DNA of 64,000 bases from Antarcticibacterium flavum (GTDB lineage: Bacteria > Bacteroidota > Bacteroidia > Flavobacteriales > Flavobacteriaceae). The stretch lies in assembly GCF_006159205.1 (NCBI RefSeq), contig NZ_CP040812.1, positions 2,232,001 through 2,296,000 of the forward strand. Reading direction: 5' to 3'. Below the pieces are notes generated by a model that was given only the letters and a program-made list of their open reading frames with translations, had not been told where the DNA came from and made no database searches. Made by a program: the position numbers and the translations under genes. Positions within the stretch are counted from its first letter, which is position 1. Each line of letters starts with the position of its first letter. This document shows positions 43,680 to 64,000 of this stretch, in pieces.

Positions 43680-44966
43680 ATGAAAAACCCTTCCACTACA
43701 ACTGGACCTGCCACAACTCCGGGAGAAACCACGCGCTCGATTATTATCATTGGCGCCCTGTTTTTTATTTTTGGTTTTGTAACTTGGTTGAATTCGGTTT
43801 TGATACCCTATTTAAAAATTGCCTGTGAACTCAATAATTTCCAGTCCTATTTTGTGGTTACGGCCTTTTATATTTCCTACCTGGTCATGGCGCTGCCCTC
43901 TGCCTGGGTACTTCAAAAAACCGGATATAAAAAGGGGATGTCCCTGGGGCTTATAGTGATGGCGGTGGGAGCAGTCATCTTTATTCCCGCTGCCTATTCC
44001 AGGGCGTACGAATTATTCCTGCTTGGGCTATTTGTGCAGGGAACCGGCCTGGCGCTTCTTCAAACAGCTTCCAATCCATATGTGGTTGTTCTTGGGCCTG
44101 CAGAGAGTGCAGCGAAGAGGATAAGCATTATGGGGATTTGTAATAAAGTTGCCGGGGTACTGGCGCCAATTGTACTGGGCGCTATCCTCTTTACTACAGG
44201 TGACAACCTGGTTGATACCATTGATGCTTTACAGGGAACAGAAAAGATTGCGGCACTGGATGAACTCGCGCAAAGAGTGATCACTCCTTACCTGGCGATG
44301 ATGGCAATACTTCTTCTCCTAAGTGCCCTGGTATATTTTTCATCTTTGCCAGAGGTTGATGCAGATGCTGAAGATGAAGAACTGGCAAAGGCAAACCTAA
44401 ATAAAACAAGTATTTTCCAGTTCCCACATCTTTTCCTGGGCACGTTTGCTTTATTTCTTTATGTAGGTGTTGAGGTAATTGCAGGAGATACAATTATAAG
44501 TTATGCCAATGAGGCACACGGCATTCCGCTTAATGAAGCTAAATTCTTTGCAAGTTTTACACTGGGAGCTATGATCGTGGGATATGTTATAGGGATTTTT
44601 ACAATTCCAAAATACATAAGTCAGGAAAACGCTCTCAAAGTTTCCGCTATTCTGGGACTTCTTTTTGGATTTATAGCAATATTTGGGGACGGATTTATTT
44701 CAGTAATGGCCATTGCCCTGCTAGGAATTGCCAATGCTCTTGTATGGCCGGCAATTTGGCCTATGGCCCTTGCAGGACTGGGCAGATTTACCAAGGTTGG
44801 ATCCTCGTTTTTAATAATGGCTATTGCAGGTGGCGCTATACTTCCACCGGTATATGGCTATTTCGCCGACTGGGATCCGCAACTGGCCTATTGGGTCCTG
44901 ATACCTTGTTACCTATACATCCTGTTTTTTGCTACTAAAGGGCATACGATAGGACGTCGTATTTAA
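43680..44966 (+). CDS. FucP/NagP-type sugar MFS transporter
   Basis: A 428-residue inner-membrane symporter with 12 helices of the FucP/GluP branch of the major facilitator superfamily. The first helix FFIFGFVTWLNSVLIPYLK and the loop LQKTGYKKGMSLGL are typical, as is QTASNPYVVVLGP in helix 5. In GlcNAc or chitin clusters of other bacteria such a carrier is NagP. Here it leads an operon with a GH20 hexosaminidase and MurQ, so GlcNAc or MurNAc import is likely (inference from context). Confidence 0.9.
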   Translation: MKNPSTTTGPATTPGETTRSIIIIGALFFIFGFVTWLNSVLIPYLKIACELNNFQSYFVVTAFYISYLVMALPSAWVLQKTGYKKGMSLGLIVMAVGAVIFIPAAYSRAYELFLLGLFVQGTGLALLQTASNPYVVVLGPAESAAKRISIMGICNKVAGVLAPIVLGAILFTTGDNLVDTIDALQGTEKIAALDELAQRVITPYLAMMAILLLLSALVYFSSLPEVDADAEDEELAKANLNKTSIFQFPHLFLGTFALFLYVGVEVIAGDTIISYANEAHGIPLNEAKFFASFTLGAMIVGYVIGIFTIPKYISQENALKVSAILGLLFGFIAIFGDGFISVMAIALLGIANALVWPAIWPMALAGLGRFTKVGSSFLIMAIAGGAILPPVYGYFADWDPQLAYWVLIPCYLYILFFATKGHTIGRRI

Positions 44967-44986
44967 ATCTTAAATGAATAATTAAA

Positions 44987-46600
44987 ATGAAGAATTTTTC
45001 ATTGTTGTTTCTTGTTTTAATTATTAGTTCCTGCAAAGGTTTTGAAGGAACTACTTCTGAAGATGTTTTGGTCATAGAAGAAAAGGATTTTTCCATAATA
45101 CCCAAACCATCAGAAATAAAAATTAGTGATAGCACGCTTGAACTTCCCGAATTAAGCAGTGTTTGTTATAATACAGCAGAAGCAGGAGAAGCTGCCTCCT
45201 GGCTTTTGGGTATGTTGCAGAAAGCAAATCTCCGGGTGAAGCCTTCAGAAGGTATCTCCTGTGGATTTTGGAACCTGTATACAGATGCTGCTTTATATCA
45301 AAGCCTGGGAGAAGAAGGATATATTCTGGAAATAAACAATGAGGGAATTTTTTTAAAAGCCGCCACTAAAAGCGGACTTTTCTATGGAATTCAAACCCTT
45401 AGGCAAATTCTTCCTGCAGCACTTGAGAATGCTACAGCGGCCACTAACAGGATTCAACTACCACAACTTTATATTAAGGATATCCCCCGCTACAGCTGGC
45501 GTGGGACTATGGTAGATATCTCAAGAAGCTTTTTTGACCTGGAATATCTTAAAGATCACGTGGACCGCATGGCGCTATATAAAATGAACCGCCTGCACCT
45601 TCATCTTACAGATGACCAGGGGTGGAGAATTGAAATAAAAAGCAAACCGGAACTAACCAACTTGGGTTCCAGAGGAGCAGTGGAGGGTGGAAGATCAGGT
45701 TACCTTACACAAGAGGAGTACATGGAGCTGCAAACCTATGCCGCAGCAAGGAATGTTATAATCATTCCGGAAATTGATATGCCCGGCCATATATATTCAG
45801 CACTGCTGGCTTACCCGGAATTGAGCTGCGATGATCTTTCGAATATTGAACCCAAGATGGCCACACCTCCCCAATTATTCTCTGGTACTAAGGTTGGCTG
45901 GAGCAAACTCTGCCTTACAAAACCTGAAATATATGATTTTGTAGCCGATGTAATTGAAGAAATGGCAGCCATTACCACCGGCCCCTGGATACACATAGGA
46001 GGGGATGAAATCGAGGACGACCTGTACGAGGAATTTGTGGTAAAGGCCGATTCTCTTGTGCGAAGTACAGGAAAGATTACGATAGGATGGGAAGAAGTAA
46101 CTAAAGCCCCGGTCAATAGTTCCCTTATTAGTCAGCAATGGCATGGAGAGGTGGAAAGTGTTGTGGATGTGAAGGTGATTGAGTCAATTTGTACCAGCTT
46201 TTACTTTGACCACGCCAATATCCCGGGGCAGGAGAAGACAAACAACTGGTGCAAGAAAAGCGGGGTGACTCTGGAAGAAGTATATAATTTTCAAAGTGAA
46301 AATAATAATGTCCTTGGGCTGGAAGCCCCGGTTTGGACAGAGTTTGTTCATACAGATGAGGATCTGGACAACAGGTTCTGGCCACGTATTATAGCAGTGG
46401 CAGAACTCGCCTGGAGTGAGGATACCACAAAAAATTATACCGACTTTATTTCCCGACTTAAAAAACATGAAGAGAGACTTATCAATATGGGGATCAATTA
46501 TTTTCCCGCGGAAGAGCTTGGTTGGAAAGAAAATACTAATAAAAAAAGGATGAATGTTTTTAAAGGGTTTATGCCCGTTAAAAAAAATACCTCTCTATAA
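44987..46600 (+). CDS. Beta-N-acetylhexosaminidase (GH20), lipoprotein
   Basis: A 537-residue lipoprotein (lipobox ISSC, Cys16) that removes terminal GlcNAc or GalNAc from glycans outside the cytoplasm. An N-terminal GH20b-like domain (about 35-165) is followed by the catalytic barrel (about 170-510). The catalytic pair D340-E341 in HIGGDEIED is intact, and HLHLTDDQGWRIEIK and IIPEIDMPGH are typical motifs. It acts upstream of the MFS carrier in the same operon, 20 nt behind it, with MurQ 6 nt downstream. No further domains are attached. Confidence 0.93.
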   Translation: MKNFSLLFLVLIISSCKGFEGTTSEDVLVIEEKDFSIIPKPSEIKISDSTLELPELSSVCYNTAEAGEAASWLLGMLQKANLRVKPSEGISCGFWNLYTDAALYQSLGEEGYILEINNEGIFLKAATKSGLFYGIQTLRQILPAALENATAATNRIQLPQLYIKDIPRYSWRGTMVDISRSFFDLEYLKDHVDRMALYKMNRLHLHLTDDQGWRIEIKSKPELTNLGSRGAVEGGRSGYLTQEEYMELQTYAAARNVIIIPEIDMPGHIYSALLAYPELSCDDLSNIEPKMATPPQLFSGTKVGWSKLCLTKPEIYDFVADVIEEMAAITTGPWIHIGGDEIEDDLYEEFVVKADSLVRSTGKITIGWEEVTKAPVNSSLISQQWHGEVESVVDVKVIESICTSFYFDHANIPGQEKTNNWCKKSGVTLEEVYNFQSENNNVLGLEAPVWTEFVHTDEDLDNRFWPRIIAVAELAWSEDTTKNYTDFISRLKKHEERLINMGINYFPAEELGWKENTNKKRMNVFKGFMPVKKNTSL

Positions 46601-46606
46601 AGAAAT

Positions 46607-47422
46607 ATGGAAGATCAAAACAAACCCTCAACAGAAAGAAGCTCCAGATATAACGATCTGGAACATATGAGCACGGAGGAACTGCTGCGAAACATGAACA
46701 GGGAAGATAAGACAGTTCCTGAGATTATCGAAAAGGAGATTCCCGCTATTGAAGCCCTGGTAGATGTTATAGTTCGTCAAATTGAATTGGGGGGAAGATT
46801 GTTCTACATAGGGGCCGGCACCAGTGGAAGGCTGGGTGTACTTGATGCTTCAGAATGTCCGCCGACTTTTGGAGTAAGTGATGATGTGGTAATAGGACTT
46901 ATAGCAGGGGGCGATGTCGCGCTTAGAAAGGCTGTTGAGAATGCTGAAGATAACACTACCCGGGCCTGGAAAGACCTTCAGCAATTTGGAATTAATAAAA
47001 AAGATGTGCTCATAGGTATCGCTGCTTCAGGTACTACACCTTACGTAATTGGAGGGGTAGAAGATGCTGCAAAGAATGGGCTTATAACCGGTTGTATAAC
47101 CAATAATAAAAATTCACCTCTGGCCAGGGCAGTTAAATATCCCATAGAAATTGAGGTGGGGCCGGAGTTTGTTACCGGTAGTACCCGCATGAAATCCGGA
47201 ACAGCTCAAAAGCTGGTACTCAATATGATCTCTACTTCTGTAATGATCAAACTGGGTAGAGTAAAAGGAAATAAGATGGTAGATATGCAGCTTAGCAATC
47301 AAAAATTAGTGGGTCGGGGTACCAGGATGATCATGGAGGAACTGGGAATCGACCAAAAGTTTGCGGAAAAATTACTCCTGGAGTATAAAAGTGTCCGTGC
47401 TGTTTTACAAAATTTTAAATAA
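46607..47422 (+). CDS. murQ: N-acetylmuramic acid 6-phosphate etherase
   Basis: A 271-residue SIS-domain enzyme that removes the lactyl ether from MurNAc 6-phosphate to give GlcNAc 6-phosphate and lactate. The motif YIGAGTSGRLGVLDASE contains E83, and E114 lies in ENAEDNT; both match the catalytic glutamates I recall from E. coli MurQ. TGSTRMKSGTAQK is the second family motif. It is slightly shorter than most (about 300), lacking the C-terminal extension. No MurNAc kinase is in the window, so its substrate must come from elsewhere. Confidence 0.93.
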   Translation: MEDQNKPSTERSSRYNDLEHMSTEELLRNMNREDKTVPEIIEKEIPAIEALVDVIVRQIELGGRLFYIGAGTSGRLGVLDASECPPTFGVSDDVVIGLIAGGDVALRKAVENAEDNTTRAWKDLQQFGINKKDVLIGIAASGTTPYVIGGVEDAAKNGLITGCITNNKNSPLARAVKYPIEIEVGPEFVTGSTRMKSGTAQKLVLNMISTSVMIKLGRVKGNKMVDMQLSNQKLVGRGTRMIMEELGIDQKFAEKLLLEYKSVRAVLQNFK

Positions 47423-51278: not shown

Positions 51279-52547
51279 ATGGGTGTAATACAAAGTTTTT
51301 TGTTTAAAAAAAAATTAACTGTCACTATTAATAAGGTAGAAAGGAAAAATCTCTTACAAAAAATAAAAATTCTGAAGTACCTTTATTTTAATGGGCCTAG
51401 AACTAATTCAGATATTTGTAATGTTTTTAAGATGAGTTTACCTACTTCAATGAATCTTCTTAATCAGCTACAAAAGGAAAAGTTAGTTGTAAAAAAAGGT
51501 TTAGGAAATTCAGCAGGAGGGAGAAGACCGGATCTTTTCGGTTTAGATGATAACACCTTCTTAGTTCTTAGTATTCATATTGAGAGGTTTAAGATTAGAA
51601 TGGCTATTATAAATAATACTCATCAAATTCTATTTGAAAAAACAATTCCTATTGTTATTTCGGCAAATTCCGAAATTGTAGATATGTTGCATAGACATGC
51701 CCAAGATTTGATTTCAGAATCTGAAATAGATACTGACATTCTTATGGGAGTAGGAGTTAGTATGCCTGGATTAATTTCTATAGAGGAAGGAAGAAACCTG
51801 ACTTATTTCCTTAAGGATCAAGAAACTGCTTCGTTGCAAAGTTGTTTGGAGAAAAAATTTTTTAAACCTGTAGTTATATTTAATGATGCAAATAGCGCCT
51901 GTCTCGCAGAATTTAGGTTTGGTCTTGCTAAAAATAAAAAGGATGTTTTAGTTGTTTCAATGGACTGGGGCATAGGATTAGGTATAATAATGGGAGGCCA
52001 ACTTCAAACAGGAACATCTGGATTTGCCGGTGAATTTGGTCATATACCAGTTGTAGAGAATGGTGCATTATGTTACTGTGGTAAAACTGGCTGTTTGGAA
52101 ACTATAGCATCAGGAATTGCTCTTGTTAAAAAAGCTGAAGAAAAATTAAGAGCTGGGCATGGATCTGTTTTAGGAAGCAATTTTCGTGATGAGTTTATTA
52201 GTTTGGAGCCCAGTCTAATTATTAAAGCGGCAAACGAGGGAGACCAATTTGCCATTAATCTTCTTACCGAAATTGGGACTAACTTGGGTAAAGGATTAGC
52301 AATACTAATTCAGATTTTCAATCCTGAAGAAATAATCTTAGGAGGACAGATTGCAGAAGCTAGGCAATTTATCACCACTCCAGTACAACAATCTATTAAC
52401 ATGTATTGTAAAATTCAACTTAAGGAGGATGCAGCTATAACTCTTTCTGAATTAGGAAAGAAATCCAGCTTGTTAGGTGTAACATTAGCAGTTATGGAAG
52501 GATTTTTTTCAAATAGGGTAAAAGCCTTAAAAAACGGCACACAATAA
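51279..52547 (+). CDS. ROK-family transcriptional regulator (NagC/Mlc-like)
   Basis: A 422-residue repressor. A winged-helix DNA-binding domain lies at about 22-90 (TNSDICNVFKMSLPTSMNLLNQL), followed by a ROK sugar-binding domain with the zinc motif CYCGKTGCLE (about 268-277) and FNDANSACLAE. Such proteins sense GlcNAc 6-phosphate, glucose or similar sugars and repress nearby sugar genes. Its position between the MurQ operon and the SusCD-type locus makes both its candidate targets, but no operator was identified. Confidence 0.88.
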   Translation: MGVIQSFLFKKKLTVTINKVERKNLLQKIKILKYLYFNGPRTNSDICNVFKMSLPTSMNLLNQLQKEKLVVKKGLGNSAGGRRPDLFGLDDNTFLVLSIHIERFKIRMAIINNTHQILFEKTIPIVISANSEIVDMLHRHAQDLISESEIDTDILMGVGVSMPGLISIEEGRNLTYFLKDQETASLQSCLEKKFFKPVVIFNDANSACLAEFRFGLAKNKKDVLVVSMDWGIGLGIIMGGQLQTGTSGFAGEFGHIPVVENGALCYCGKTGCLETIASGIALVKKAEEKLRAGHGSVLGSNFRDEFISLEPSLIIKAANEGDQFAINLLTEIGTNLGKGLAILIQIFNPEEIILGGQIAEARQFITTPVQQSINMYCKIQLKEDAAITLSELGKKSSLLGVTLAVMEGFFSNRVKALKNGTQ

Positions 52548-52588: not shown

Positions 52589-53344
52589 TTACCTATCCGG
52601 TTTCTCTATCTTCACCTTAACATCTTCAGACTTAATTGTGGAAACATGAGAAAGCTCTCCATTCGTATAAAGAGAATCCAATAATTTTAGAGGAGTAGAT
52701 AATTTTTCAAATTTGTAATTTTTATAATCTACAAATCTTATTCCTCCTATATACCTTTCATTAAAGGCTTTTCTAAAGCGAATTCCACCGCCATTTGTTT
52801 TAAATTTATACGCTATATAGTCAACTTTATAGCTTTCGGAATTAATCCAGTATACATATTCGTCTTCGTGCTCCATTTCAACTCCATTTTGATTAAAGGT
52901 TACTTTAATTTCATAATATTCATCGTTACCAATACTATCCATTCCAATTAATTCCTTGTCTACCGCTTCGGAATGCAAACCATATGGCAATAAAACAAAG
53001 TAATGCACTGAATTTAAGGCATTTTTATAGATTTGTTTAATAGAATCCTGGACCGTCACATTTTTACCATCTTTGTATCTTTGGAAACCTTTGTTAGTAA
53101 TAATATCCTGCATTTTTACTCCAGCAGTATCTAATACTATTCTATCATAATAAAAATTCCCAATATTTCTGCTACTTTTATATTTTTCGCCTCTAAATAT
53201 AAAATTTATAGTGGCCTTTTCGTATAAATCACCTCCCGCGACTTTAATTGTCTTATGAATAATGCGATTGGTATTAAATTGATTTTCTGATTTATCACAG
53301 GAAACCAAAAGGAAAACTATTAAGATAAAATTTATAAACTTCAT
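52589..53344 (-). CDS. DUF6503-like lipoprotein
   Basis: A 251-residue lipoprotein (lipobox LVSC, Cys16) with a beta-rich body and motifs such as DEYYEIKVTF and DEYVYWINSESYKVDYIAY, which fit the LolA-like outline of DUF6503, a Bacteroidota family sometimes misnamed deoxyribose-phosphate aldolase. It may carry hydrophobic ligands, but this is unproven. It lies downstream of the DASS gene in the same direction after 133 nt and could be the last gene of the locus or independent. Confidence 0.72.
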   Translation of the reverse strand: MKFINFILIVFLLVSCDKSENQFNTNRIIHKTIKVAGGDLYEKATINFIFRGEKYKSSRNIGNFYYDRIVLDTAGVKMQDIITNKGFQRYKDGKNVTVQDSIKQIYKNALNSVHYFVLLPYGLHSEAVDKELIGMDSIGNDEYYEIKVTFNQNGVEMEHEDEYVYWINSESYKVDYIAYKFKTNGGGIRFRKAFNERYIGGIRFVDYKNYKFEKLSTPLKLLDSLYTNGELSHVSTIKSEDVKVKIEKPDR

Positions 53345-53477: not shown

Positions 53478-54953
53478 TTACTTTGGGATAAAATTTTTAC
53501 CATTCTCCATCAATGGATCAAAATTCCAAAGGTAGGGTAACAAAAAATAAATAATTAGGCTAATGAGAATAATAGAAATTAGATTCATAAAGATACCAGA
53601 TTTTACCATATTAGGAATGGTTAAGTATTTACAACCAAATACAACAGCATTAGGAGGCGTGGCTACGGGTAGCATAAAGGCACAGGATGCCGCCGTAGTG
53701 GTTGCTACCAAAAGTATAAATGGATGTATGCCTAAGGCAATGGCAATAGGAGCAATTATAGGCAACAACATTGCTGTAGAGGCCGTATTTGATGTTACCT
53801 CTGTTAAAAAGTTAACTGCCGCCACAATTATTAAAATCAGTATAAATAAAGATAAGTCGCGGAATAGAGAAATTTGAGTGCCAAACCATTCGGCTAAGCC
53901 CGTATGTTGAAAACCTGCAGCCAGTGCCATTCCCCCTCCAAATAATATTATTATTCCCCAAGGTAGTTTTACTGCATCTTCCCAATCTATAAGTCTTTCC
54001 CCAGTATTATTTGCTGGTATTGTAAATAATAAAATTCCAAAAGTCATTGCAATTATAGTATCATCCAAGGCCGGAAAGAACTGCACAAAAATAAAAGAAC
54101 GCGTAATCCAAAAAAAGGCAGTTAAGGTAAAAACAACCAAAACTAATTTTTCTTCTTTTTTAAGAGGTCCTAATTCAGCAAGTAAGGCATTAACTTCCTT
54201 TCTTCCTCCAGCAAAACCTTTTCGCTTAAATTTAAAAGCATATCGAGTTAAATAAATCCAAGCTATTCCCAATAAAATAAAAGAAATTGGAAATCCAAAT
54301 TTGAACCATTGCCAAAAGGTTATTTCAATTCCATAAGTCTCATTTAAAAAGCCTGCAAAAATTAAATTTGGAGGTGTACCTATTAAGGTAGCCACACCTC
54401 CAATAGAAGCAGCATAAGCCATGCCTAGCATAAGTGCCTTTCCAAATCGTTGTGTTTCGTTCTCAGTTGTTGAAGGATTATCTTCCATTAAAGCAATAAT
54501 AGAAAGTCCCATAGGAAATAACATCACTACCGTTGCAGTATTTGAAATCCACATTGATAAGAAAGCTGTTGCTACCATAAAGCCCAATATAATCCTATAA
54601 ATATTGGTGCCAATCAAGCTAATAATGTTAAGAGCAATTCTTTTGTGTAAATTCCACTTTTGAATGGCAATTGCGAGTAAAAATCCCCCCATGAATAAGA
54701 AAATATATTTATTTCCATATGCAGCGGTTGTTGTTGAGAGATCAACTGCTCCGGTAAGGGGAAAAAGGACAATTGGTAAAAGTGCCGTCACGCTTATCGA
54801 AACAGCTTCTGTAACCCACCAAACTGCCATCCATAATGTGATACATAACATATCATAAGCTGCTGGTGGGATTGCTTCAGGAGTTTTTAATTGTAAAATT
54901 ATAAATATAACCGGACCTAATAAAATGAAGAAGTTTTTTTGGTTTAAAGACAT
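53478..54953 (-). CDS. DASS/SLC13 family sodium-coupled anion symporter
   Basis: A 491-residue inner-membrane transporter of the divalent anion:sodium symporter family. Two SNT motifs, the sodium sites, are visible: SNTATVVMLFP (about 146) and TSNTASTAMLLP (about 385), one in each half of the inverted repeat. The helices fill nearly the whole protein. Family substrates are succinate, citrate, tartrate or sulfate. It follows the PL26-like lyase gene, so it may import an acidic breakdown product or a counter-ion; this is inference. Confidence 0.9.
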   Translation of the reverse strand: MSLNQKNFFILLGPVIFIILQLKTPEAIPPAAYDMLCITLWMAVWWVTEAVSISVTALLPIVLFPLTGAVDLSTTTAAYGNKYIFLFMGGFLLAIAIQKWNLHKRIALNIISLIGTNIYRIILGFMVATAFLSMWISNTATVVMLFPMGLSIIALMEDNPSTTENETQRFGKALMLGMAYAASIGGVATLIGTPPNLIFAGFLNETYGIEITFWQWFKFGFPISFILLGIAWIYLTRYAFKFKRKGFAGGRKEVNALLAELGPLKKEEKLVLVVFTLTAFFWITRSFIFVQFFPALDDTIIAMTFGILLFTIPANNTGERLIDWEDAVKLPWGIIILFGGGMALAAGFQHTGLAEWFGTQISLFRDLSLFILILIIVAAVNFLTEVTSNTASTAMLLPIIAPIAIALGIHPFILLVATTTAASCAFMLPVATPPNAVVFGCKYLTIPNMVKSGIFMNLISIILISLIIYFLLPYLWNFDPLMENGKNFIPK

Positions 54954-55001
54954 TTTTCGTTCTCAAAATTTGATAATTCGATAAAGTGCGGGATTATTTT
55001 T

Positions 55002-57662
55002 CTAATTTGCTCCATTATAATTATTTGTCTCCGTATTTTCTACATTGTCACCTGTTTTTAAATTTTCTTTTTCAAGCCAGTAAAGCAAGTATGGAATATT
55101 GAAGGCATGGGTCCAACCGAACACTCTTAATCCTTGGTTCATTTCCCAGTTTGTAAACCGGGGATTCTCTTGGCTCTCTGGTAAATTGGAAATCTCCAGT
55201 AATGCTTCGCTGTACACTTTCTGGTTTTCAAATTCGCTACTGTTTTTTGAAAGCTTGGAAACTTTTAGGACCTCTGCTCTTTCTAAAGCTTCTTCTAGAT
55301 AAATTTTATTACCGCTAAACTCATAACCTAGCAATAGTGGATGAATAGTAGCTAAATAAGATTCCATCTCATGGTTATACGGTGGCACATTAAGAACCCA
55401 TCGTGCGTGGTCTACAAGAACTTTTTTAATCCTGGTATCACCCGTTAACTGGTAATACTTATACAGGCCTTGAGCAACGTAGGTTTGGCTATAACCATAC
55501 CTGTCGATGAGGATGTTGCCTCCCTGTTCTTTTTGCAACTCCAGCATTGTTTCTACTCTTTTATCTAACTCTGTTCCATACTTCATTGATTTTGTAGCAT
55601 CAAATAATTCTACAAGGTTTAAAACTGAAAGATAAAGTCTTCTTCCCCTTAGATCGTGATCTCCCCAAATACGTTTCAAATATGTATCTCCAGTCATTTT
55701 AGCTACATCTAGAGCTCGGTGATTTCCACTTAAATAATAAGAAGCGATCCAACCCTGAATCCATACATGTGCACTTAGCAAAGAATACCAATGCTCTTCC
55801 GCATGCCTTCTTCCTATACCTAAGTAAGGTGTTGATTCAGGTTCATCCTCATAGTTCCAGAAATCTATGGCATCATTTATTTGACCTAAATAAGTTCTCT
55901 TTCTTGGCCAGTGTACATTATCAACATCCATGGTATGATTGCTCATTGCTTCTGCCAAATAATAATATTTTGGATTACCTGTTCTCATAAAGTTGGTCCA
56001 AAATTGAAAATCAACAGTGGGTTCATTATTATTCCACTGGTGCCATTCTCCTGCAATATAATAGTTCTTGCCATCTCCATAATCAAACATCCCGTACCAT
56101 GGCTCCCAATCCTGATTGAAAGACCACCAATCGTATTTATATTGTAATGCATTTTCAAATTCCTGATGTGCTGAAGAGTATGCAGCCATATTACCATAAA
56201 CCTTTGATTCGGCGTACCATTCCGGCGCGGCATGTGCCACAGGAGAATTTAACGAATAGTCCATGATGGCTTCGATCTCTTCAGCATCAGATCCTTGATG
56301 AAAATAATATATGAATTCGGTAGTTTTCGTGATTCCCTGCGCAAAATTTCCTAACATCCCACCATCCTTTTCCGTATGTTTTCTTGCAAAATTCATTGGC
56401 TCAACTTCCGGAGGCCAGATATATCCATTTAATGAATTGGTTTTAAGATCAACTTGAATTTCCTTAGGATACTCCTGGAAAAAATTTTTAATCCCAAGGC
56501 TTATGCCCTTTGAAAAATCTGAAATATCCACCCATCCGTTAGATCTTTGTGTATCTTTTAGAGATTGGCCCCCCCGATATATTTCAGATTTAAATCCTTC
56601 TATTCTTTTTGTAGGGGAGGAAGTTTTTTCCGGATTGTTTTGTTTAGGCCCCGTTTGTAAAACACCAACTTTCTGATTTCCGGGATCATCAAGTGTAAAC
56701 AGGCTAGAAGAGGCTTTATTATACCAATCACCCTCATGAGTGGAAGTAATAAACTTTACGTCATTAGCTAAGTGGTAGTTGAAAGTTATTCCTGAACCTG
56801 CTATTTGGTCATCGGGCTGAGTCCATCCGGGATCGTTCATAGTTTCCTCAGAAAGTATAATATTATTCTGCGTTGCAATATTCGCATGATCTCCCTCCCG
56901 GTTTTTATGTTTGTCAGGATTCCCGGTATAGGTAATGGTGTGTAACACCCTAATAAAAGATTTTCCTGCATAAGCATGAACACGAATTTCAAATGGAGAT
57001 GGGTTATTGGCATTTTCATAGACATACGTCCCTTCGATCCGAAAGATTGTGTGCAATGGACCCGACCCTTTTTCCCTAAACACCTCGTGAATGACAGCCT
57101 TTGACATATCTAACCCATTATCATCCAGAATATCCAAAAACGTCCCTCTTCTTTTGTCTGGGGCTGATGCAATGATTTCATTAGCATCAAAAATTCCATC
57201 ATCGTTTTGATCTAAATAGACCTTATCAAGAAAACCATTACCTTGTTTATTAATCGAAAATTTAAGCGGTCCTGTATTGACAGTTATTCCGCCCTGTGGT
57301 CTCATGTTGTTGGTGGAAATAATACCATTGGAAACCCTGGAGGGTAAAATACCCTCTCCATACTCCAGTGTATAATTTGCAGACTCTTCGGAGAAAAAGA
57401 AAACCCAAATCCATTTTACACTTTCATCTGCCGGTAACCATGTAGTTACTTCTGTGGTTTGAATGGGAATTTCTTTTCCTTGATTGTTTAATAGCCGAAT
57501 GTTATCAACTGAATATAATTCTCCTAGAGGAAAGGGAATTCCCATAGTAATTGGGGCTCCTTTTACATTATTTTCAACTGTTATAGGTAATTGTTTTATA
57601 TTTTTCGCAAAATTAGTAGTTGCACACAGAAGTGCAACAATCATGATTATTAGATTCTTCAT
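55002..57662 (-). CDS. PL26/YetA-like exo-rhamnogalacturonan-lyase family protein
   Basis: An 886-residue secreted protein with signal peptide (1-19). The N-terminal segment PITVENNVKGAPITMGIPFPLGEL is typical of the PcRGLX/YetA N-terminal domain; a central beta-sandwich follows (about 130-480) and then a helical alpha/alpha-toroid-like region (about 490-860, with HAEEHWYSLLSAHVWIQGW). This matches the family of Penicillium exo-rhamnogalacturonan lyase (PL26). Bacterial members have not all been tested, so pectin specificity cannot be assumed. It follows the ROK kinase and precedes the DASS symporter. Confidence 0.78.
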   Translation of the reverse strand: MKNLIIMIVALLCATTNFAKNIKQLPITVENNVKGAPITMGIPFPLGELYSVDNIRLLNNQGKEIPIQTTEVTTWLPADESVKWIWVFFFSEESANYTLEYGEGILPSRVSNGIISTNNMRPQGGITVNTGPLKFSINKQGNGFLDKVYLDQNDDGIFDANEIIASAPDKRRGTFLDILDDNGLDMSKAVIHEVFREKGSGPLHTIFRIEGTYVYENANNPSPFEIRVHAYAGKSFIRVLHTITYTGNPDKHKNREGDHANIATQNNIILSEETMNDPGWTQPDDQIAGSGITFNYHLANDVKFITSTHEGDWYNKASSSLFTLDDPGNQKVGVLQTGPKQNNPEKTSSPTKRIEGFKSEIYRGGQSLKDTQRSNGWVDISDFSKGISLGIKNFFQEYPKEIQVDLKTNSLNGYIWPPEVEPMNFARKHTEKDGGMLGNFAQGITKTTEFIYYFHQGSDAEEIEAIMDYSLNSPVAHAAPEWYAESKVYGNMAAYSSAHQEFENALQYKYDWWSFNQDWEPWYGMFDYGDGKNYYIAGEWHQWNNNEPTVDFQFWTNFMRTGNPKYYYLAEAMSNHTMDVDNVHWPRKRTYLGQINDAIDFWNYEDEPESTPYLGIGRRHAEEHWYSLLSAHVWIQGWIASYYLSGNHRALDVAKMTGDTYLKRIWGDHDLRGRRLYLSVLNLVELFDATKSMKYGTELDKRVETMLELQKEQGGNILIDRYGYSQTYVAQGLYKYYQLTGDTRIKKVLVDHARWVLNVPPYNHEMESYLATIHPLLLGYEFSGNKIYLEEALERAEVLKVSKLSKNSSEFENQKVYSEALLEISNLPESQENPRFTNWEMNQGLRVFGWTHAFNIPYLLYWLEKENLKTGDNVENTETNNYNGAN

Positions 57663-57678
57663 TTTTCTGAATTTAATT

Positions 57679-58509
57679 TTAAAAACATAAGGATGCCGCT
57701 CCTAATATTGCAGATCCTGGTTTATTTGATATTTTAATGTTGAAATTTTCAAGTTGTTTTTGGTAGGCAAAAGATTCGAGTGAAAATTCCAAAGATTTTT
57801 GAAAGTAATTATAAGCCTTACTTATTGAACCCCCAATGACTATGGCTTCCGGTGCATATAAATAAAGTATATTTTTAATGACCTCACCAAGATGAGCACC
57901 ATATTCATTAAATGCTTGGATGGCAAATAAATCTCCTTTTGAGGCGGAAAAAAAAAGGTCCTTAGAGTTTATTCCGTAATTGTTGGTAAAGAAAAAACTG
58001 CCTGCATAATCCTCTATTATACTATTCTTGTAGGTCACCATGCCAATTTCACCAGCCCCACAAAGAACCCCGCTGTACAATTTTTCATTAATAATAATTC
58101 CCATTCCTATGCCAGTTCCAAGGGATAAGCCTATAAAGTCTTTATAATTACGGCCTTTTCCATAAATTTTTTCTCCCATGGCGAAACAGTTAGCATCGTT
58201 ATTAATAAAAACCGGTAAATTATAACGCTCTTCCATAAGGTCTTTCAATTCTATCTTTTTCCAGGAAGGAATGTTCTGAACATCATAAACAACCCCTGTT
58301 ACCGGATCTACAACCCCAGGAACTCCTATGCCAATGCTTTCTGAATCCTTGTTTATAACACTCTCTATACAATCATACAGATCCTCCAATATTCGTTTTG
58401 AAGAGGCTTCTTTCCTAACAGGAACTAATGATTTTTTCTCTATTATACCTTTTGAAACTCTTCCTGCTTTTAAATTTGAGCCTCCAATATCAACCCCAAT
58501 CACTTTCAT
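57679..58509 (-). CDS. ROK-family sugar kinase without the zinc motif
   Basis: A 276-residue cytoplasmic kinase. The phosphate loop GVDIGGSNLKAG (5-16), the catalytic Asp105 in NNDANCFAMGE and GLSLGTGIGMGI are present. The usual sequence GHxxxxxxxxxCxCGxxGCxE is missing: GEIGMVTY (153-160) has Met in place of the zinc His, and the following loop has no cysteines. This resembles the non-zinc ROK kinases. It probably phosphorylates an amino sugar or uronate brought in by the MFS carrier, whose stop overlaps its start by 4 nt (ATGA). Confidence 0.87.
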   Translation of the reverse strand: MKVIGVDIGGSNLKAGRVSKGIIEKKSLVPVRKEASSKRILEDLYDCIESVINKDSESIGIGVPGVVDPVTGVVYDVQNIPSWKKIELKDLMEERYNLPVFINNDANCFAMGEKIYGKGRNYKDFIGLSLGTGIGMGIIINEKLYSGVLCGAGEIGMVTYKNSIIEDYAGSFFFTNNYGINSKDLFFSASKGDLFAIQAFNEYGAHLGEVIKNILYLYAPEAIVIGGSISKAYNYFQKSLEFSLESFAYQKQLENFNIKISNKPGSAILGAASLCF

Positions 58510-59777
58510 ACTAATGTTTTTGTTTGTTTTTTAAAGCTGAAGACTTTATTGTTAACGATAGGTTTGGACCAAAAACCTATAGTTAGGATAAAAATGAGTG
58601 GTAGAATTAGAAAAAACAACCCGGTTTTGAGGCTCGTAATTTCACCAATTGATCCAACAATAAATGGAAAGATTGCCCCCCCGGCAATACCCGTACACAG
58701 AATACCCGATAATGCTCCATGATTACTTGCGGTTGAATTCAGGGCAAGAGAAAATATAATTGACCACATTACAGAAATAAAAAAGCCAATTAGAGGAAAC
58801 GCAATGAGTGCAATATTAGCTGTGCCAGTCAGGGCCGCTATTAGGCTTAGAATTGTAATCACAGTAGCTAAAATTAATACTTTCCTACTATCCATAAATT
58901 TTAAAAGGAGGAGACCGAGCAGACAGCCTGCTGTTAACATTGCCCAAAAATATGCAACTGTATTAGCTCCTACAGTTCTTGGATCCAGATCGTGATATTG
59001 CAATAAGAACTGAGAGATCCAGTTTCCGACACCCTGCTCGGTGCCAACATAACAAAAGATACCTAGAAAGTAAAGCAGTACCCATCGGCTTTTTAAAAGT
59101 TGCAGATAGGAATCAAAAGACCCAGCCCGTTCATCTTCATTTTTTATGAAAATTGGATATTTTGTTACTAATACTATAACCAATAAGCACAAAGAAATTG
59201 CAGCAAAAACGATATAGAGAGCTACCCAAGGCAAGTTCACCGGCACAAAGCTTCTTAATAAAGCTGCCGTATTATCAACGTTCGTAGCAGAGGTATTGAC
59301 CAAATATTTGTAAAGGAAAGGACTTGCAAAAGAGGCTAACCCGAAGAAAAGTTGTGCTAATACAGAATTGAATGCAAAATGTTCCTCACCTCCTGCCACT
59401 CGCAACATAGGGTTTATAATTACTTGTAGTACAGCCATACAGCATCCTAAAACAAAAAGTGTTAGAGAAAAGACCAGATACCCTGGAAATATAACGAAAC
59501 TCAAAGAGGTAACCGCCATCAATAGAAATGCTGCAGACAGTAATATCTTATTGCTATACTTTTCAGCAAGAAATCCGGCCGGTATGGACATCACTCCATA
59601 GGCAATAAAAAAAGAAAATGGTAAAAACCCGGTTAAAGTTAGGCTTAGATCAAAACTTTCTTTAACATCTGCAATAATAGAATTGAGAATGTTTGTTATA
59701 AAGGATATTACAAAGAATATCACGATAACCAGTACTACAATGTGATAATATTTAGGGGAGGTGCTTACTTTATTCAT
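58506..59777 (-). CDS. Sugar MFS transporter
   Basis: A 423-residue 12-helix major facilitator protein of the FucP-like/sugar group. I start at MNKVSTSPKYYH, directly before the first helix; a longer frame to 59867 would add a basic 30-residue stretch overlapping the PIG-L stop and is not typical. IPAGFLAEKYSNK is the loop 2-3 motif. It is linked by a 4-nt ATGA overlap to the ROK kinase, and the first PIG-L gene ends 22 nt upstream, so it should import the sugar released by the locus. Confidence 0.87.
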   Translation of the reverse strand: MNKVSTSPKYYHIVVLVIVIFFVISFITNILNSIIADVKESFDLSLTLTGFLPFSFFIAYGVMSIPAGFLAEKYSNKILLSAAFLLMAVTSLSFVIFPGYLVFSLTLFVLGCCMAVLQVIINPMLRVAGGEEHFAFNSVLAQLFFGLASFASPFLYKYLVNTSATNVDNTAALLRSFVPVNLPWVALYIVFAAISLCLLVIVLVTKYPIFIKNEDERAGSFDSYLQLLKSRWVLLYFLGIFCYVGTEQGVGNWISQFLLQYHDLDPRTVGANTVAYFWAMLTAGCLLGLLLLKFMDSRKVLILATVITILSLIAALTGTANIALIAFPLIGFFISVMWSIIFSLALNSTASNHGALSGILCTGIAGGAIFPFIVGSIGEITSLKTGLFFLILPLIFILTIGFWSKPIVNNKVFSFKKQTKTLV

Positions 59778-59799
59778 TAATTTTCTTGTTAGAATTCGC

Positions 59800-60690
59800 T
59801 TACAATTTTCCCAACATTGGGAACAATTCTTTAATCTCCTTTTCAGTCGGCTGTTTGCCATATTCACAGATTTCCAAAAATTCTACGTGGCTAACATCAG
59901 AGGTTTTTATACCTGGGTACCATTTATTTATTGCCGCTGCCTCTGATTCGTTGTAAGCTTTAGGAGAACGATTATTTTTTAACCAGGTAAGCCTCTCTTC
60001 TTTTCCTTCAGGGATTTCAGACTCTGGAATTTTGTTTGTCCATGGCCCCCATTCAAACATCTGGGATTCATGGGCAGCCAGCGCCTCCATTTTTTGATCA
60101 TAAACATTATCTATGACTATGGCTATATCTTTGGAAAAGGGATTTGGCTTTTGAAAGTTATCGTTCATATATAGAAACACAGGATTTTTTTCCAGAGGAG
60201 GAGTGTCTGGTGTTACGTTAGGGACGATCACCAGATATGCTGCATCCTGAACAGCAATTCCTGCATTTCTATGGTCCGGGTGATAATCATTTGGGCGTAG
60301 GCCTAATACAATATCAGCATCCCATTCCCTTATTTTTCTTATTACTTGCTGTCTAACCTGAAGGTTAGGAATCAGCTCTCCGTCGTGATTATCAAGAACC
60401 TCATATTCTATTCCCAGGATCTCACCTGCACGCTTTGCTTCTGCCCTGCGTCTTTTACCTAAAATACCTCCCCCCATGTTCTGGTGTCCGGCATCGCCGT
60501 TTGTAAGAGCCAGAAATTTGACCTTGTGTCCCATTTTGGCAAATAAGGCGGCCGTTCCCCCAAATTTAAAATCACAGTCATCTGGATGAGCACCAATGGC
60601 GATGATATTTAAAACTTTCTTTTCGTTTTCTTGCGCGCTCATAGTTACTCCAAAGGTTAGCAGGGCGGCTAATAGTATGATTTTCTTCAT
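59800..60690 (-). CDS. Secreted PIG-L family deacetylase, paralog 3
   Basis: A 296-residue protein with signal peptide (1-19) and a LmbE/PIG-L domain, a zinc-dependent N-deacetylase fold. The zinc motif AHPDD (34-38), NGDAGH and the second metal/active-site block DYHPDHRNAG (about 135-144) are intact. The substrate is probably an N-acetylated sugar. It is the third of three tandem paralogs; its start overlaps the previous stop by 4 nt. Long DNHDGEL and NPVFLY stretches are shared by all three. Confidence 0.9.
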   Translation of the reverse strand: MKKIILLAALLTFGVTMSAQENEKKVLNIIAIGAHPDDCDFKFGGTAALFAKMGHKVKFLALTNGDAGHQNMGGGILGKRRRAEAKRAGEILGIEYEVLDNHDGELIPNLQVRQQVIRKIREWDADIVLGLRPNDYHPDHRNAGIAVQDAAYLVIVPNVTPDTPPLEKNPVFLYMNDNFQKPNPFSKDIAIVIDNVYDQKMEALAAHESQMFEWGPWTNKIPESEIPEGKEERLTWLKNNRSPKAYNESEAAAINKWYPGIKTSDVSHVEFLEICEYGKQPTEKEIKELFPMLGKL

Positions 60691-61580
60691 TGTTTTTTAT
60701 TGTTAAGCATTGGAAATAATCTTAAAATTTCTGCTTCAGTTGGTTGTTTTCCATATTCGCATATTTCAAAAGCTTCGGCATATTTTATTTCTTCGCCCCT
60801 ATCTTCCCCATACCATTTTTTTAATGCCTTTCGGACTTGAGAGGATATGTCTAATGTCCATCTGTCTGTAAGCCACTCCTTTCTTTCTTTAATGTTCTCC
60901 GGAACTTCTGAAAGCTCCTTATCTACCCAAGGTAGCCATTCGTACATTTGAGAAGTATGGGCATCGTGCGCATCCATTTTTAAATCAAATACCGAAGTGA
61001 TGTCAACTGCGATGTCAGGCTGGAAAGGATATGGCTTTTCAAAGTCATCTTCTAGGTACAGAAACACTGGATTTTTTTCTAAAGGTTTCGTGTTCGGAGT
61101 TATGTTGGGGACAATAACCAGATATGCTGCATCCTGCACCAAAATTCCAGTATTACGATGATCTGGATGATAGTCAACTGGTCTGTGAGTTATAACGATA
61201 TCTGCATTCCAGTTGCGAATTTCTCTAATAATCTGATGTCTTATATCTAGAGTGGGTAATAATTCCCCGTCGTGGTTGTCCAGAACGGTATAAGTTTCTA
61301 TCCCAAGTCTTTTTGCAGCCTCTTTGGCTTCGGCTCTTCTTATTTTAGTCAGGTGCCCACCTCCTTTATTGAAATGACCTGCATCGCCGTTGGTCACAGA
61401 AACGAACTTTACCTTGTGACCCATTTTAGCAAATAAAGCAGCTGTACCACCCATTTGTTGATCGGTGTCATCTGGATGAGCGCCTATAGCTATAATTCTC
61501 AAAGGTTCCTCAAAACTGTTCTGTCCATAAGTGGATATTCCAAAACTGGCCAGGAAAAATAGAATTAGAAAATTCTTCAT
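60687..61580 (-). CDS. Secreted PIG-L family deacetylase, paralog 2
   Basis: A 297-residue secreted PIG-L/LmbE enzyme. Signal peptide 1-20, AHPDD at 34-38 (followed by TDQQMGG, where paralogs 1 and 3 have NKF or FKF), and HPDHRNTG. It is very close to paralog 1 over the whole length. It lies 8 nt after paralog 1 and overlaps paralog 3 by 4 nt, so all three are translated from one message. Differences near the metal site suggest divided substrate preference. Confidence 0.9.
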   Translation of the reverse strand: MKNFLILFFLASFGISTYGQNSFEEPLRIIAIGAHPDDTDQQMGGTAALFAKMGHKVKFVSVTNGDAGHFNKGGGHLTKIRRAEAKEAAKRLGIETYTVLDNHDGELLPTLDIRHQIIREIRNWNADIVITHRPVDYHPDHRNTGILVQDAAYLVIVPNITPNTKPLEKNPVFLYLEDDFEKPYPFQPDIAVDITSVFDLKMDAHDAHTSQMYEWLPWVDKELSEVPENIKERKEWLTDRWTLDISSQVRKALKKWYGEDRGEEIKYAEAFEICEYGKQPTEAEILRLFPMLNNKKQ

Positions 61581-61588
61581 ATAATAAG

Positions 61589-62491
61589 TTATAATTTCTT
61601 ACTTAACATCGGGAAGAGATTTCTTATTTCTTCTGTAGAAGGGCGTCTACCGTATTCACAAATTTCAAAAGATTCAGCATATTTAACATTTGTAGCATGT
61701 TCTTCTCCGTACCACTTTTTTAGTGACTCACGCTCGGCAGGAGTTATACTCCCTGACCAGTTTTTAGCTAAAAATTCTCGTCTTTTATCTTCTTGTTGAG
61801 GTACCTCCTCTAATTTACCTCCTGTCCAAGGCAGCCATTCATACATTTGGGATTGATGAGCACCTAATCCATCAAGTTTTTTCTCAAATACCTTTGTTAT
61901 GTCCACTGTAATATCTGGTTGAAAAGGGTATGGTTTCTGAAAATGATCTTCCAAATAAAGGAATACGGGGTTTTTTTCAAGCGGCTCTGTATCTGGTGTC
62001 ACATTAGGGACTATTACCAGGTAAGCCGCATCTTGAACCAATATTCCAGTATATCTGTGATCTGGGTGGTAATCTGCAGGTCTGGGGGATAATACAATAT
62101 CTGAATTCCAGTTTCGTATTTCTCTAATTAGTTGATGACGTACATCAAGTGTTGGTAATAGCTCCCCATCATGGTTATCCAGGACCTTATATTCCTTAAT
62201 ACCGAGCTTTTTAGCTGAATTTTCTGCTTCTTTACGTCTAATCCTGGCCAGAGCTCCGCCACCTTTATTATAATGCCCTGCATCGCCATTAGTGACAGAA
62301 ACAAATTTCACATTATGTCCCATTTCTGCAAATAGAACAGCGGTACCTCCAAATTTGTTATCAGCATCATCAGGGTGGGCCCCAATAACAATTATATTCA
62401 GGGGTTGATCAGGTTTTTGTTGTGCCTTTGCATTAACTGCCATCAGAAAAACAAAAGTACCTGCCATTATATTTAAAAATTGCTTTTTCAT
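61589..62491 (-). CDS. Secreted PIG-L family deacetylase, paralog 1
   Basis: A 300-residue secreted PIG-L/LmbE enzyme. Signal peptide to about residue 23 (AKAQ), AHPDD at 38-42, SVTNGDAGHYNKGGG, and DYHPDHRYTG. All expected metal ligands are present. It is the first of three tandem copies downstream of susD. An 18-bp perfect hairpin in the spacer before it may stop or stabilise part of the transcript. Confidence 0.9.
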   Translation of the reverse strand: MKKQFLNIMAGTFVFLMAVNAKAQQKPDQPLNIIVIGAHPDDADNKFGGTAVLFAEMGHNVKFVSVTNGDAGHYNKGGGALARIRRKEAENSAKKLGIKEYKVLDNHDGELLPTLDVRHQLIREIRNWNSDIVLSPRPADYHPDHRYTGILVQDAAYLVIVPNVTPDTEPLEKNPVFLYLEDHFQKPYPFQPDITVDITKVFEKKLDGLGAHQSQMYEWLPWTGGKLEEVPQQEDKRREFLAKNWSGSITPAERESLKKWYGEEHATNVKYAESFEICEYGRRPSTEEIRNLFPMLSKKL

Positions 62492-62512
62492 ATTTCTTAA
62501 ATATTAAAATAA

Positions 62513-62551
62513 ATATCACATCAGGACTTGTTACAAGTCCTGATGTGATAT
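62513..62551 (-). repeat. Perfect 18-bp inverted repeat between susD and the PIG-L genes
   Basis: Arms at 62513-62530 and 62534-62551 are perfectly complementary around TTA. Leftward, the hairpin is followed by TTATTTTAA, so it may act as a partial terminator or as a barrier that protects the susCD message from 3' decay. Confidence 0.8.
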
Positions 62552-62564
62552 GGCTAATTAGAAT

Positions 62565-63950
62565 TTAATTTTGAACGAAATTAGGATTTATGTCCATTTC
62601 ACGTTGTGGAATGAAAAATAATTCCCTTACGTCAGAAGGATCAACCACAGGTTCGGCTGTTTCAAAAACCTCTCTTTCAAAGCCAAATCTTCTCAAATCT
62701 GGCCACCGGTGATTTTCAAAAGCCAATTCCAGTTGTCTTTCCTTTAGTAATTTTTCTTCGAAACTACCAGGAGTAGTTTCATCTATTCCCTCCAGACCTG
62801 CTCTTTGTCTTATCTGGTTTATCAAATTATAACTTTCGGTAGACTCTCCAATTGCTTCAGCAAGCATAAGTAATACATCAGCATATCTGAAAACAACAAA
62901 ATTTACATCTGAATCATTTTCGGTAGGGGGATCACTTTCGTATTTACGAATATAATTCGCCATTACAGTCTCTCCCTGGGCATTTTCATATGAAGTGCCA
63001 AGAGACACCTGAAATCTTTCATCCTGGGGATCAAACGAATTTACTATTGCCGGTGTTGGCCTATTACGCCCAAAACCGGATCCAGTTTGTAAAAAGGCAC
63101 TAGGGGAAAAATCATTCGTGAAAGAACTTCCTTGTCCAATACCTCCACTAACAAATTGAACTTCAAAAATTGATTCATCATTGTTTTCATTCTGAGGGCC
63201 CCATAAATCTGCATAATTATCTAATAACGTATAATTATAATTATTAATAATCCGCCTTAAAACTTCTTCCGCGGAACTGTTTTGGTCTACAGTTAATAAA
63301 ATTTTCGCTAACAAAGTAGCGGCAGCTCCTTTTGTGGCTCGGCCTTTTTCTGAAGACGGATAAGAAATCGGGAGTAAATTTTCCGCCCTTTCCAGATCGG
63401 TAATAAGTTGAGAATAAACGATGTCAGCATTTACTTGTTCTAATTCATCTCCGGGGTTAAATGGTGTTAATTGCAAGGGTATATTTCCATAAGCAACAGC
63501 TAAATGGTAATACATTAAAGATCTTAAGAAGATTGCTTCTCCTGTAATTCTTTCTTTTACAGAATTATCCATTTCAACAGATTCAATCCTATTCAGGATG
63601 ACATTGGAATTGGCAATTACCTTATAAGAGTTTACCCAAGCGGAAGTAACTGTTTCATTTAAAGGATCTTCTGTGAAATTATTAATTTCAGTATATTGTC
63701 TTGCCAAACCAGTAGCATCGGGTCCTTGGTCGGTGTTTTCAGATCTCATTTCGAACATAGTCCAATAAGCTCTACCGTAAACACCATTATCCTGTAGCCC
63801 AGAATAGCTTGCATTTATAGCAACATTGAAATCATCTGCATTACGATAAAATTCAGCTTCATTTCTATTAGAAATGGGCGCTAGCTCTGTAAAATCTTCA
63901 CAGGAAACTAAAAGAATTCCTAAAAGGAAAAGTATATTAATATTTTTCAT
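62565..63950 (-). CDS. susD: SusD/RagB-type glycan-binding lipoprotein
   Basis: A 461-residue outer-membrane lipoprotein (lipobox LVSC, Cys17) that forms the lid of a SusC TonB-dependent channel. The N-terminal helix-rich part has NADDFNVAINASYSGLQ, and the TPR-like helices follow. The C-terminal RQLELAFENHRWPDLRRFG and the FIPQREMDINPNFVQN end are textbook SusD. It starts 10 nt after the SusC stop. The bound glycan cannot be told from the sequence. Confidence 0.94.
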   Translation of the reverse strand: MKNINILFLLGILLVSCEDFTELAPISNRNEAEFYRNADDFNVAINASYSGLQDNGVYGRAYWTMFEMRSENTDQGPDATGLARQYTEINNFTEDPLNETVTSAWVNSYKVIANSNVILNRIESVEMDNSVKERITGEAIFLRSLMYYHLAVAYGNIPLQLTPFNPGDELEQVNADIVYSQLITDLERAENLLPISYPSSEKGRATKGAAATLLAKILLTVDQNSSAEEVLRRIINNYNYTLLDNYADLWGPQNENNDESIFEVQFVSGGIGQGSSFTNDFSPSAFLQTGSGFGRNRPTPAIVNSFDPQDERFQVSLGTSYENAQGETVMANYIRKYESDPPTENDSDVNFVVFRYADVLLMLAEAIGESTESYNLINQIRQRAGLEGIDETTPGSFEEKLLKERQLELAFENHRWPDLRRFGFEREVFETAEPVVDPSDVRELFFIPQREMDINPNFVQN

Positions 63951-63960
63951 ATTTTTTTTG

Positions 63961-64000
63961 TTAGAAGTTTAAATTAACACCTAATGTTATTGATGTTGTC
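63961..64000 (-). CDS. susC: SusC-type TonB-dependent receptor, last 12 codons only
   Basis: The minus strand reads TTSITLGVNLNF followed by a stop at 63961-63963. This is the typical last beta strand of a SusC/TonB-dependent outer-membrane barrel, with terminal Phe. The rest of the gene lies outside the window. The place directly before susD confirms it. Confidence 0.85.
   Translation of the reverse strand, partial: TTSITLGVNLNF

Follow-up and report, generated by a model that had tools for sequence, protein, structure and literature searches.

A recurring SusCD cassette with PIG-L deacetylases and a PL26-like protein, putatively for acidic amino-sugar compounds

The window considered here is a stretch of 64,000 nucleotides (G000:C1:2232001-2296000) from the single-contig, 4.35 Mb genome of Antarcticibacterium flavum. 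Its right end contains a SusCD locus with three tandem PIG-L deacetylases, a major facilitator superfamily (MFS) transporter, a ROK-family kinase, a PL26 (PcRGLX)-like protein and a DASS sodium:anion symporter. This layout is not unique to the window: it is a recurring cassette type, and it is not a chance arrangement, because it recurs in many genomes. The best general reading of the substrate is an acidic N-acylated amino-sugar compound, whose polysaccharide nature, uronic acid and cleavage by a lyase reaction remain putative. More specifically, we lean, by a small margin over doubt, towards an operon resembling a polysaccharide utilization locus (PUL) that would serve the uptake and catabolism of an acidic compound with an N-acylated hexosamine, probably N-acetylglucosamine (GlcNAc), by the complete route proposed below.

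The operon and its recurrence in other genomes

All genes of the locus are on the minus strand. The susC gene has only its 3' end, 40 nucleotides, inside the window (63961..64000) and continues to about position 67238 (L008:12962-16239); it is adjacent to susD, and its product has the plug and TonB-receptor barrel domains. The SusD-like lipoprotein (62565..63950) matches SusD_RagB and SusD-like_3 and has the lipobox LVSC. It is followed by PIG-L deacetylases 1 (61589..62491), 2 (60687..61580) and 3 (59800..60690), each assigned by Pfam and by the tree described below and each carrying a signal peptide; here and below, the signal peptides and the lipobox were judged by eye. Then come the MFS sugar transporter (58506..59867), which resembles the GluP, FucP and NagP models at scores below their cut-offs, the ROK-family sugar kinase (57679..58509; Pfam and profile matches), the PL26-like protein (55002..57662), also with a signal peptide, and the DASS symporter (53478..54953; Pfam and TIGR00785). 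The mechanically called start of the MFS gene is a GTG (59867), and the ATG at 59777 is a likelier one. The top Pfam match of each named gene exceeds its gathering score; PF12771, a minor match of SusD, falls short of its threshold. Thus the minus-strand genes from susD to the DASS gene, and their families, as listed in the initial annotation, are borne out by the open reading frame (ORF) coordinates and Pfam.

The spacing is tight: 73 nucleotides between susD and PIG-L1, eight between PIG-L1 and PIG-L2, a 4-nucleotide overlap of PIG-L2 and PIG-L3, 22 nucleotides between PIG-L3 and the MFS gene with the ATG start (a 68-nucleotide overlap with the GTG start), a 4-nucleotide overlap of the MFS and ROK genes, 16 nucleotides between the ROK and PL26-like genes, and 48 between the latter and the DASS gene. 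With the ATG start, the run has a maximal gap of 73 nucleotides and two 4-nucleotide overlaps, and hence the genes from susD to the DASS gene likely form one transcription unit.

Related loci were sampled by PIG-L, as the best 80 of 434 matches among genome contigs, and this sample is thus biased towards PIG-L. In 37 of the 80 loci the PIG-L gene is at most four genes from a susD on the same strand, and 31 of the 37 have the full downstream context. ORFs of at least 100 amino acids were called mechanically and grouped with BLASTP; the gene counts are minimum values (the greedy ORF caller overlooked SusD and a PIG-L in L158), the cluster labels are based on the window proteins and some Pfam-checked examples, and the ROK cluster merges kinases and repressors. 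Among the 31 loci, the same run contains a PL26-like gene in 30, a ROK gene in 30, an MFS gene in 29, susC in 29, a DASS gene in 13 and nagB in seven; the one locus without a PL26-like gene in the run, L052, carries it on the opposite strand. A sigma-factor gene is in the same run at 22 of the 37 loci (two sigma and two FecR examples were Pfam-checked). The carriers include Gillisia, Gelidibacter, Formosa, Cellulophaga, Polaribacter, Lutibacter, Maribacter and Flagellimonas, and further Balneola, Fulvivirga, Saprospiraceae and KSB1 records; the single Calditrichota contig stops after the MFS gene.

To counter the PIG-L bias, a converse sample was formed by the PL26-like genes of 20 matching genomes outside the window's family, which was taken as Flavobacteriaceae from named relatives. 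The stretches covered about 20 kb around the gene (two only 12–13 kb), and 14 of the 20 genomes come from one family (f24), so that the 20 events are not independent. PIG-L is present at all 20 loci: 13 have the same class, and seven solely a diverged type, whose second motif is HKADH instead of HPDH in the copies inspected (in L168, the one copy checked, the Pfam score is 98 bits). In L158, L168 and L169 the diverged gene is a direct neighbour of the PL26-like one, and in L161–L164 it is situated about 9.5 kb away, upstream of the sigma/FecR genes. SusC is found at 18 of the 20 loci, SusD at 17 by the script plus L158 on reading, DASS at 17 (11 on the same strand, six on the opposite one), ROK at 15, MFS at nine (one on the opposite strand), and the NagB fusion at one. 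Hence PIG-L, SusCD and DASS accompany the PL26-like gene most consistently; MFS and NagB vary. The link to an anion proposed in the initial annotation is backed by the recurrent DASS gene, at 17 of these 20 loci (11 on the same strand) and in the same run at 13 of the 31.

Several loci of both samples have additional neighbours. In three of the four L161–L164 genomes a stand-alone nagB-like gene immediately precedes the diverged PIG-L gene, ahead of the sigma-factor gene (L184:3-1712, L186:670-2385, L187:102-1766); none was seen in this position in the fourth. In L084:7715-13383 the same PIG-L class occurs beside MFS, ROK, a 3-keto-disaccharide hydrolase domain and a Gfo/Idh oxidoreductase, and PIG-L next to a gene of the Gfo/Idh cluster is seen again in other loci. 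In L126–L128 (G014, probably Formosa sediminum) the neighbours of the cassette are NagA-like, two GH20-domain and NagB-like genes, uxaC and uxuA. L071:256-3033 and similar Flagellimonas and Maribacter loci have M20 peptidase, flavin adenine dinucleotide (FAD)-oxidoreductase (DAO-type by cluster) and SnoaL-like genes before the sigma/FecR pair. In Cytophagales loci (L062:6530-8531, L048:739-1830, L065:1817-2917) SusD and PIG-L are separated by a DUF2911-TPR protein and in one case by a glyoxalase-like one.

The PIG-L deacetylases and the PL26-like protein

The three PIG-L proteins are 56–65% identical to each other and score 92.4, 99.3 and 93.9 bits against PF02585 (gathering cut-off 28.2). The AHPDD and HPDH motifs, which we take to be the metal and catalytic motifs, with the roles of single residues presumed, are intact in all three and align with those of the archaeal diacetylchitobiose deacetylases (Dac). 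The latter are the closest solved relatives (E-value 3e-22 for PIG-L2; 3.6e-26 for the profile). PMC9779004 describes the CE-14 Dac as deacetylating the non-reducing end via a His-Asp-His zinc site, and as also employing a C-terminal histidine from the adjacent subunit; our Dac/PIG-L alignment leaves out the region of this histidine. The bacillithiol enzyme BshB1 belongs to the same PIG-L family and was considered as an identity for the trio. It was rejected, as the three scores against TIGR04001 (106.2, 116.5 and 113.4 bits) are below the equivalog cut-off (182.5), whereas the genuine BshB1 of this genome is a separate gene scoring 304.3 bits; the solved bacillithiol-pathway deacetylase 6P2T matches PIG-L2 at 56.9 bits, compared with 82.6 for Dac.

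The signal peptides suggest that the PIG-L enzymes act in the periplasm, after SusCD. The earlier proposal of deacetylation outside the cell before import would hold as far as it places this step before inner-membrane import, and its location would be shifted to the periplasm.

The PIG-L tree (60 rows, 55 of them different; two loci are doubled, L104=L123 and L105=L124) contains two clades, A (16 rows, support 100/97) and B (21 rows, 100/100), and all twelve distinct two-copy loci have an A-lineage gene followed by a B-lineage gene. Of the window's copies, the first (lineage A) groups with Gillisia copy 1 and the third (lineage B) with Gillisia copy 2 (support 100/94 and 100/99, respectively). 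Copy 2 falls inside the A clade on a long branch (0.52) with a weakly supported placement (83/59), and no counterpart of it was seen in the loci compared. This PIG-L class has one copy in 27 of the 37 loci and two in ten; three were seen only in this genome. Hence the three-in-tandem arrangement is, as judged from the tree, a locally expanded form of the conserved A/B pair, with an apparently A-type extra copy. The initial annotation regarded three secreted PIG-L proteins as a non-standard layout; the cassette itself recurs, and what sets the window apart is the third copy, a local addition to the one- or two-copy state. The A and B consensus sequences differ at 14 positions, including 131, 132 and 135 just before HPDH and 143–144 just after it. 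We infer that the differences near this motif may affect specificity; at 131, 132 and 135, copy 1 of the window does not have the A consensus residues.

The PL26-like protein has all three PcRGLX Pfam domains above the cut-off (RIFT barrel, beta sandwich and alpha/alpha toroid), and its profile matches PcRGLX with an E-value of 4e-29. The similarity is full-length, at about 18% identity to this exo-rhamnogalacturonan lyase (5XQ3, 5XQG, 5XQJ, 5XQO). Unlike PcRGLX, the window protein is linked to amino-sugar, not pectin, genes. Its kinship with PL26 is clear in the sequence and predicted fold, and the lyase activity is putative. The protein is scarce in the window's family (four of 149 genomes) and occurs in 22 of 395 genomes of a phylum sample, the own genome included in both counts.

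The proposed route and its alternatives

Upstream of susC, outside the window and on the same strand, is a gene for a NagB-PIG-L fusion of 640 amino acids (about 67345-69267, L008:16346-18268), which joins a glucosamine-6-phosphate deaminase (NagB) to a PIG-L domain and scores above the NF002557 subfamily cut-off (1030.3 compared with 384 bits, residues 7–639). The GlcNAc-6-phosphate deacetylase NagA (TIGR00221) was not found in this genome (best score 30 bits, cut-off 225.65), nor, at an E-value of 1e-30, in 20 of 23 hand-chosen cassette genomes, this one included. The fusion is present in 22 of the 23. Half of the family genomes (50 of 100) have it as well, among them all eight with NagA. 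The fused PIG-L domain is a candidate substitute for this deacetylase.

In the route that we favour, SusCD would carry the compound across the outer membrane, and PIG-L A, A' and B would strip N-acyl groups from it in the periplasm. The PL26-like protein may cleave a bond beside a carboxylated residue. Free glucosamine would be imported by the MFS protein, phosphorylated to glucosamine-6-phosphate by the ROK kinase, and converted to fructose-6-phosphate by the NagB domain of the upstream fusion; the carboxylate part would enter through the DASS symporter. Such a route from a GlcNAc compound via PIG-L, glucosamine and ROK to NagB would require no NagA. The operon may be repressed by a ROK-family NagC/Mlc-like protein with a helix-turn-helix, encoded convergently (51279..52547, plus strand); a gene 70% identical to it comes after the DASS gene in the Gillisia limnaea locus. 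The DASS protein scores above the TIGR00785 subfamily cut-off (315.5 compared with 198.6 bits) and is nearly equidistant from the solved SLC13 members 1, 2, 3 and 5, which are carriers of sulfate, dicarboxylates or citrate. A ROK kinase of Bacteroides thetaiotaomicron phosphorylates both glucosamine and GlcNAc, according to PMC11300592. As to the N-acetylated acidic substrate suggested initially, the N-acetylated sugar and its deacetylation before inner-membrane import gain support from the accompanying NagB, ROK and sugar-type MFS genes and from Dac being the nearest solved relative; the polysaccharide nature is putative.

Several observations weigh against this route. Among the 20 PL26-side loci, 11 yielded no MFS gene and one of the other nine has it on the opposite strand, so that glucosamine import by MFS would not be universal. 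DASS is outside the same run in 18 of the 31 loci and on the opposite strand in six of 17, and NagB is in the same run at just seven of the 31. The absence of NagA is not specific to the cassette, since 92 of 100 family genomes also gave no NagA match at an E-value of 1e-40. The dominance of f24 in the PL26-side sample and the frameshifted susC of this genome count in the same direction. Finally, according to PMC11300592, B. thetaiotaomicron acetylates glucosamine to GlcNAc and deacetylates it after phosphorylation, that is, in the reverse order.

Two other substrates are each rather unlikely. If it were an N-acetylated uronic-acid glycan, the PL26-like protein would be a true beta-eliminating lyase acting on it, as its full-length similarity to PL26 in sequence and fold may indicate. 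The glucuronate isomerase gene uxaC near the cassette at two Formosa loci points the same way, as do uxuA and, judged by eye, a UxuB-like short-chain dehydrogenase in the longer Formosa stretch. The two Formosa loci are, however, the only cases of uxaC among 116 stretches searched (many short or overlapping), and the annotated genes of the cassette in the window include no unsaturated-uronate hydrolase or 2-keto-3-deoxygluconate-pathway gene. Moreover, to our knowledge DASS carriers transport di- and tricarboxylates and sulfate, not uronates. Debris of chitin or peptidoglycan seems just as doubtful a target. Here amino-sugar oligosaccharides would be deacetylated at the non-reducing end, where the CE-14 Dac works (PMC9779004), and the PL26-like protein would be an exo-hydrolase. 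This agrees with Dac being the closest solved relative, with the NagP-like MFS, GH20 and MurQ genes in the same window, and with the peptidoglycan-recycling-like cluster directly upstream, where a second NagB-PIG-L is encoded about 8 kb away from the other. Nevertheless, murQ was found at none of the related loci searched, the Formosa locus is the only one of them with relatives of the GH20 and second MFS of the window, the cassette has no chitinase or glucosaminidase, and the DASS link is left without an account.

Less probable still is that the locus is decaying in this strain, with a real frameshift in susC and a redundant third PIG-L. The susC gene is indeed broken by one frameshift into two open pieces in different frames, which match successive parts of the intact Gillisia limnaea SusC (71% and 83% identity), and PIG-L2 has its long branch (0.52). 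On the other hand, all eight genes from susD to the DASS gene have ORFs, the motifs are kept in all three PIG-L proteins, and a lone frameshift may be a sequencing error. We give very little credence to a substrate in which an N-acyl hexosamine is conjugated to a dicarboxylic acid, for example N-acetylglucosaminyl-malate or compounds of the bacillithiol type. The PIG-L proteins would then serve as a deacetylase and an amidase, and the protein with the PL26 fold would eliminate the dicarboxylate (malate leaving as fumarate) for import by DASS. If true, this would be an undescribed utilisation system, in which a PL26-fold enzyme acts on a substrate that is small and not a uronate.

Neighbouring genes, known systems and implications

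The DASS gene is followed by one for a DUF6503 protein (52589..53344, minus strand; Pfam), whose membership in the locus is doubtful; no relatives of it were found at the loci searched. The plus strand of the window carries a separate amino-sugar unit at 43680-47422, with an NagP-like MFS (below the cut-off), GH20 and the MurQ etherase. The statement in the initial annotation that no glycoside hydrolase is in view therefore holds for the locus, and not for the window. The cluster directly upstream (L009:2-12556) resembles a peptidoglycan-recycling one. It contains GHL10, an SSS symporter, an Ala-Glu epimerase-like protein, NlpC/P60, an AmpD-like amidase, ROK, a second NagB-PIG-L fusion (L009:7341-9275, about 8 kb from the first) and a GH3-beta-lactamase-domain fusion.

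The cassette shares with Bacteroidota PULs the SusC-SusD pair followed by exported enzymes, an inner-membrane transporter and a kinase. It differs from them in that the operon has no glycoside hydrolase or sulfatase, the predicted degrading set being the PIG-L proteins and one PL26-like protein. With the archaeal diacetylchitobiose pathway (CE14 Dac and glucosaminidase) it would share PIG-L-type deacetylation ahead of sugar phosphorylation and later steps that yield glucosamine-6-phosphate without NagA. Unlike in that pathway, the window's PIG-L proteins have signal peptides and belong to a SusCD operon that encodes a PL26-like protein and DASS but no glucosaminidase. Neither a description of the cassette nor an assigned substrate was found in the literature searched, with most subscription journals and PULDB outside the search; papers on Flavobacterium or Gramella genomes or Arctic metagenomes may mention a related locus.

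A cassette kept together from the Flavobacteriaceae to the Balneolaceae and KSB1 records must target a worthwhile food source. Exported PIG-L deacetylases combined with a PL26-fold enzyme and an anion symporter would widen the known range of SusCD loci, and the cassette points to the use of amino sugars without NagA, with deacetylation by PIG-L proteins that would be either NagB fusions or free periplasmic enzymes.

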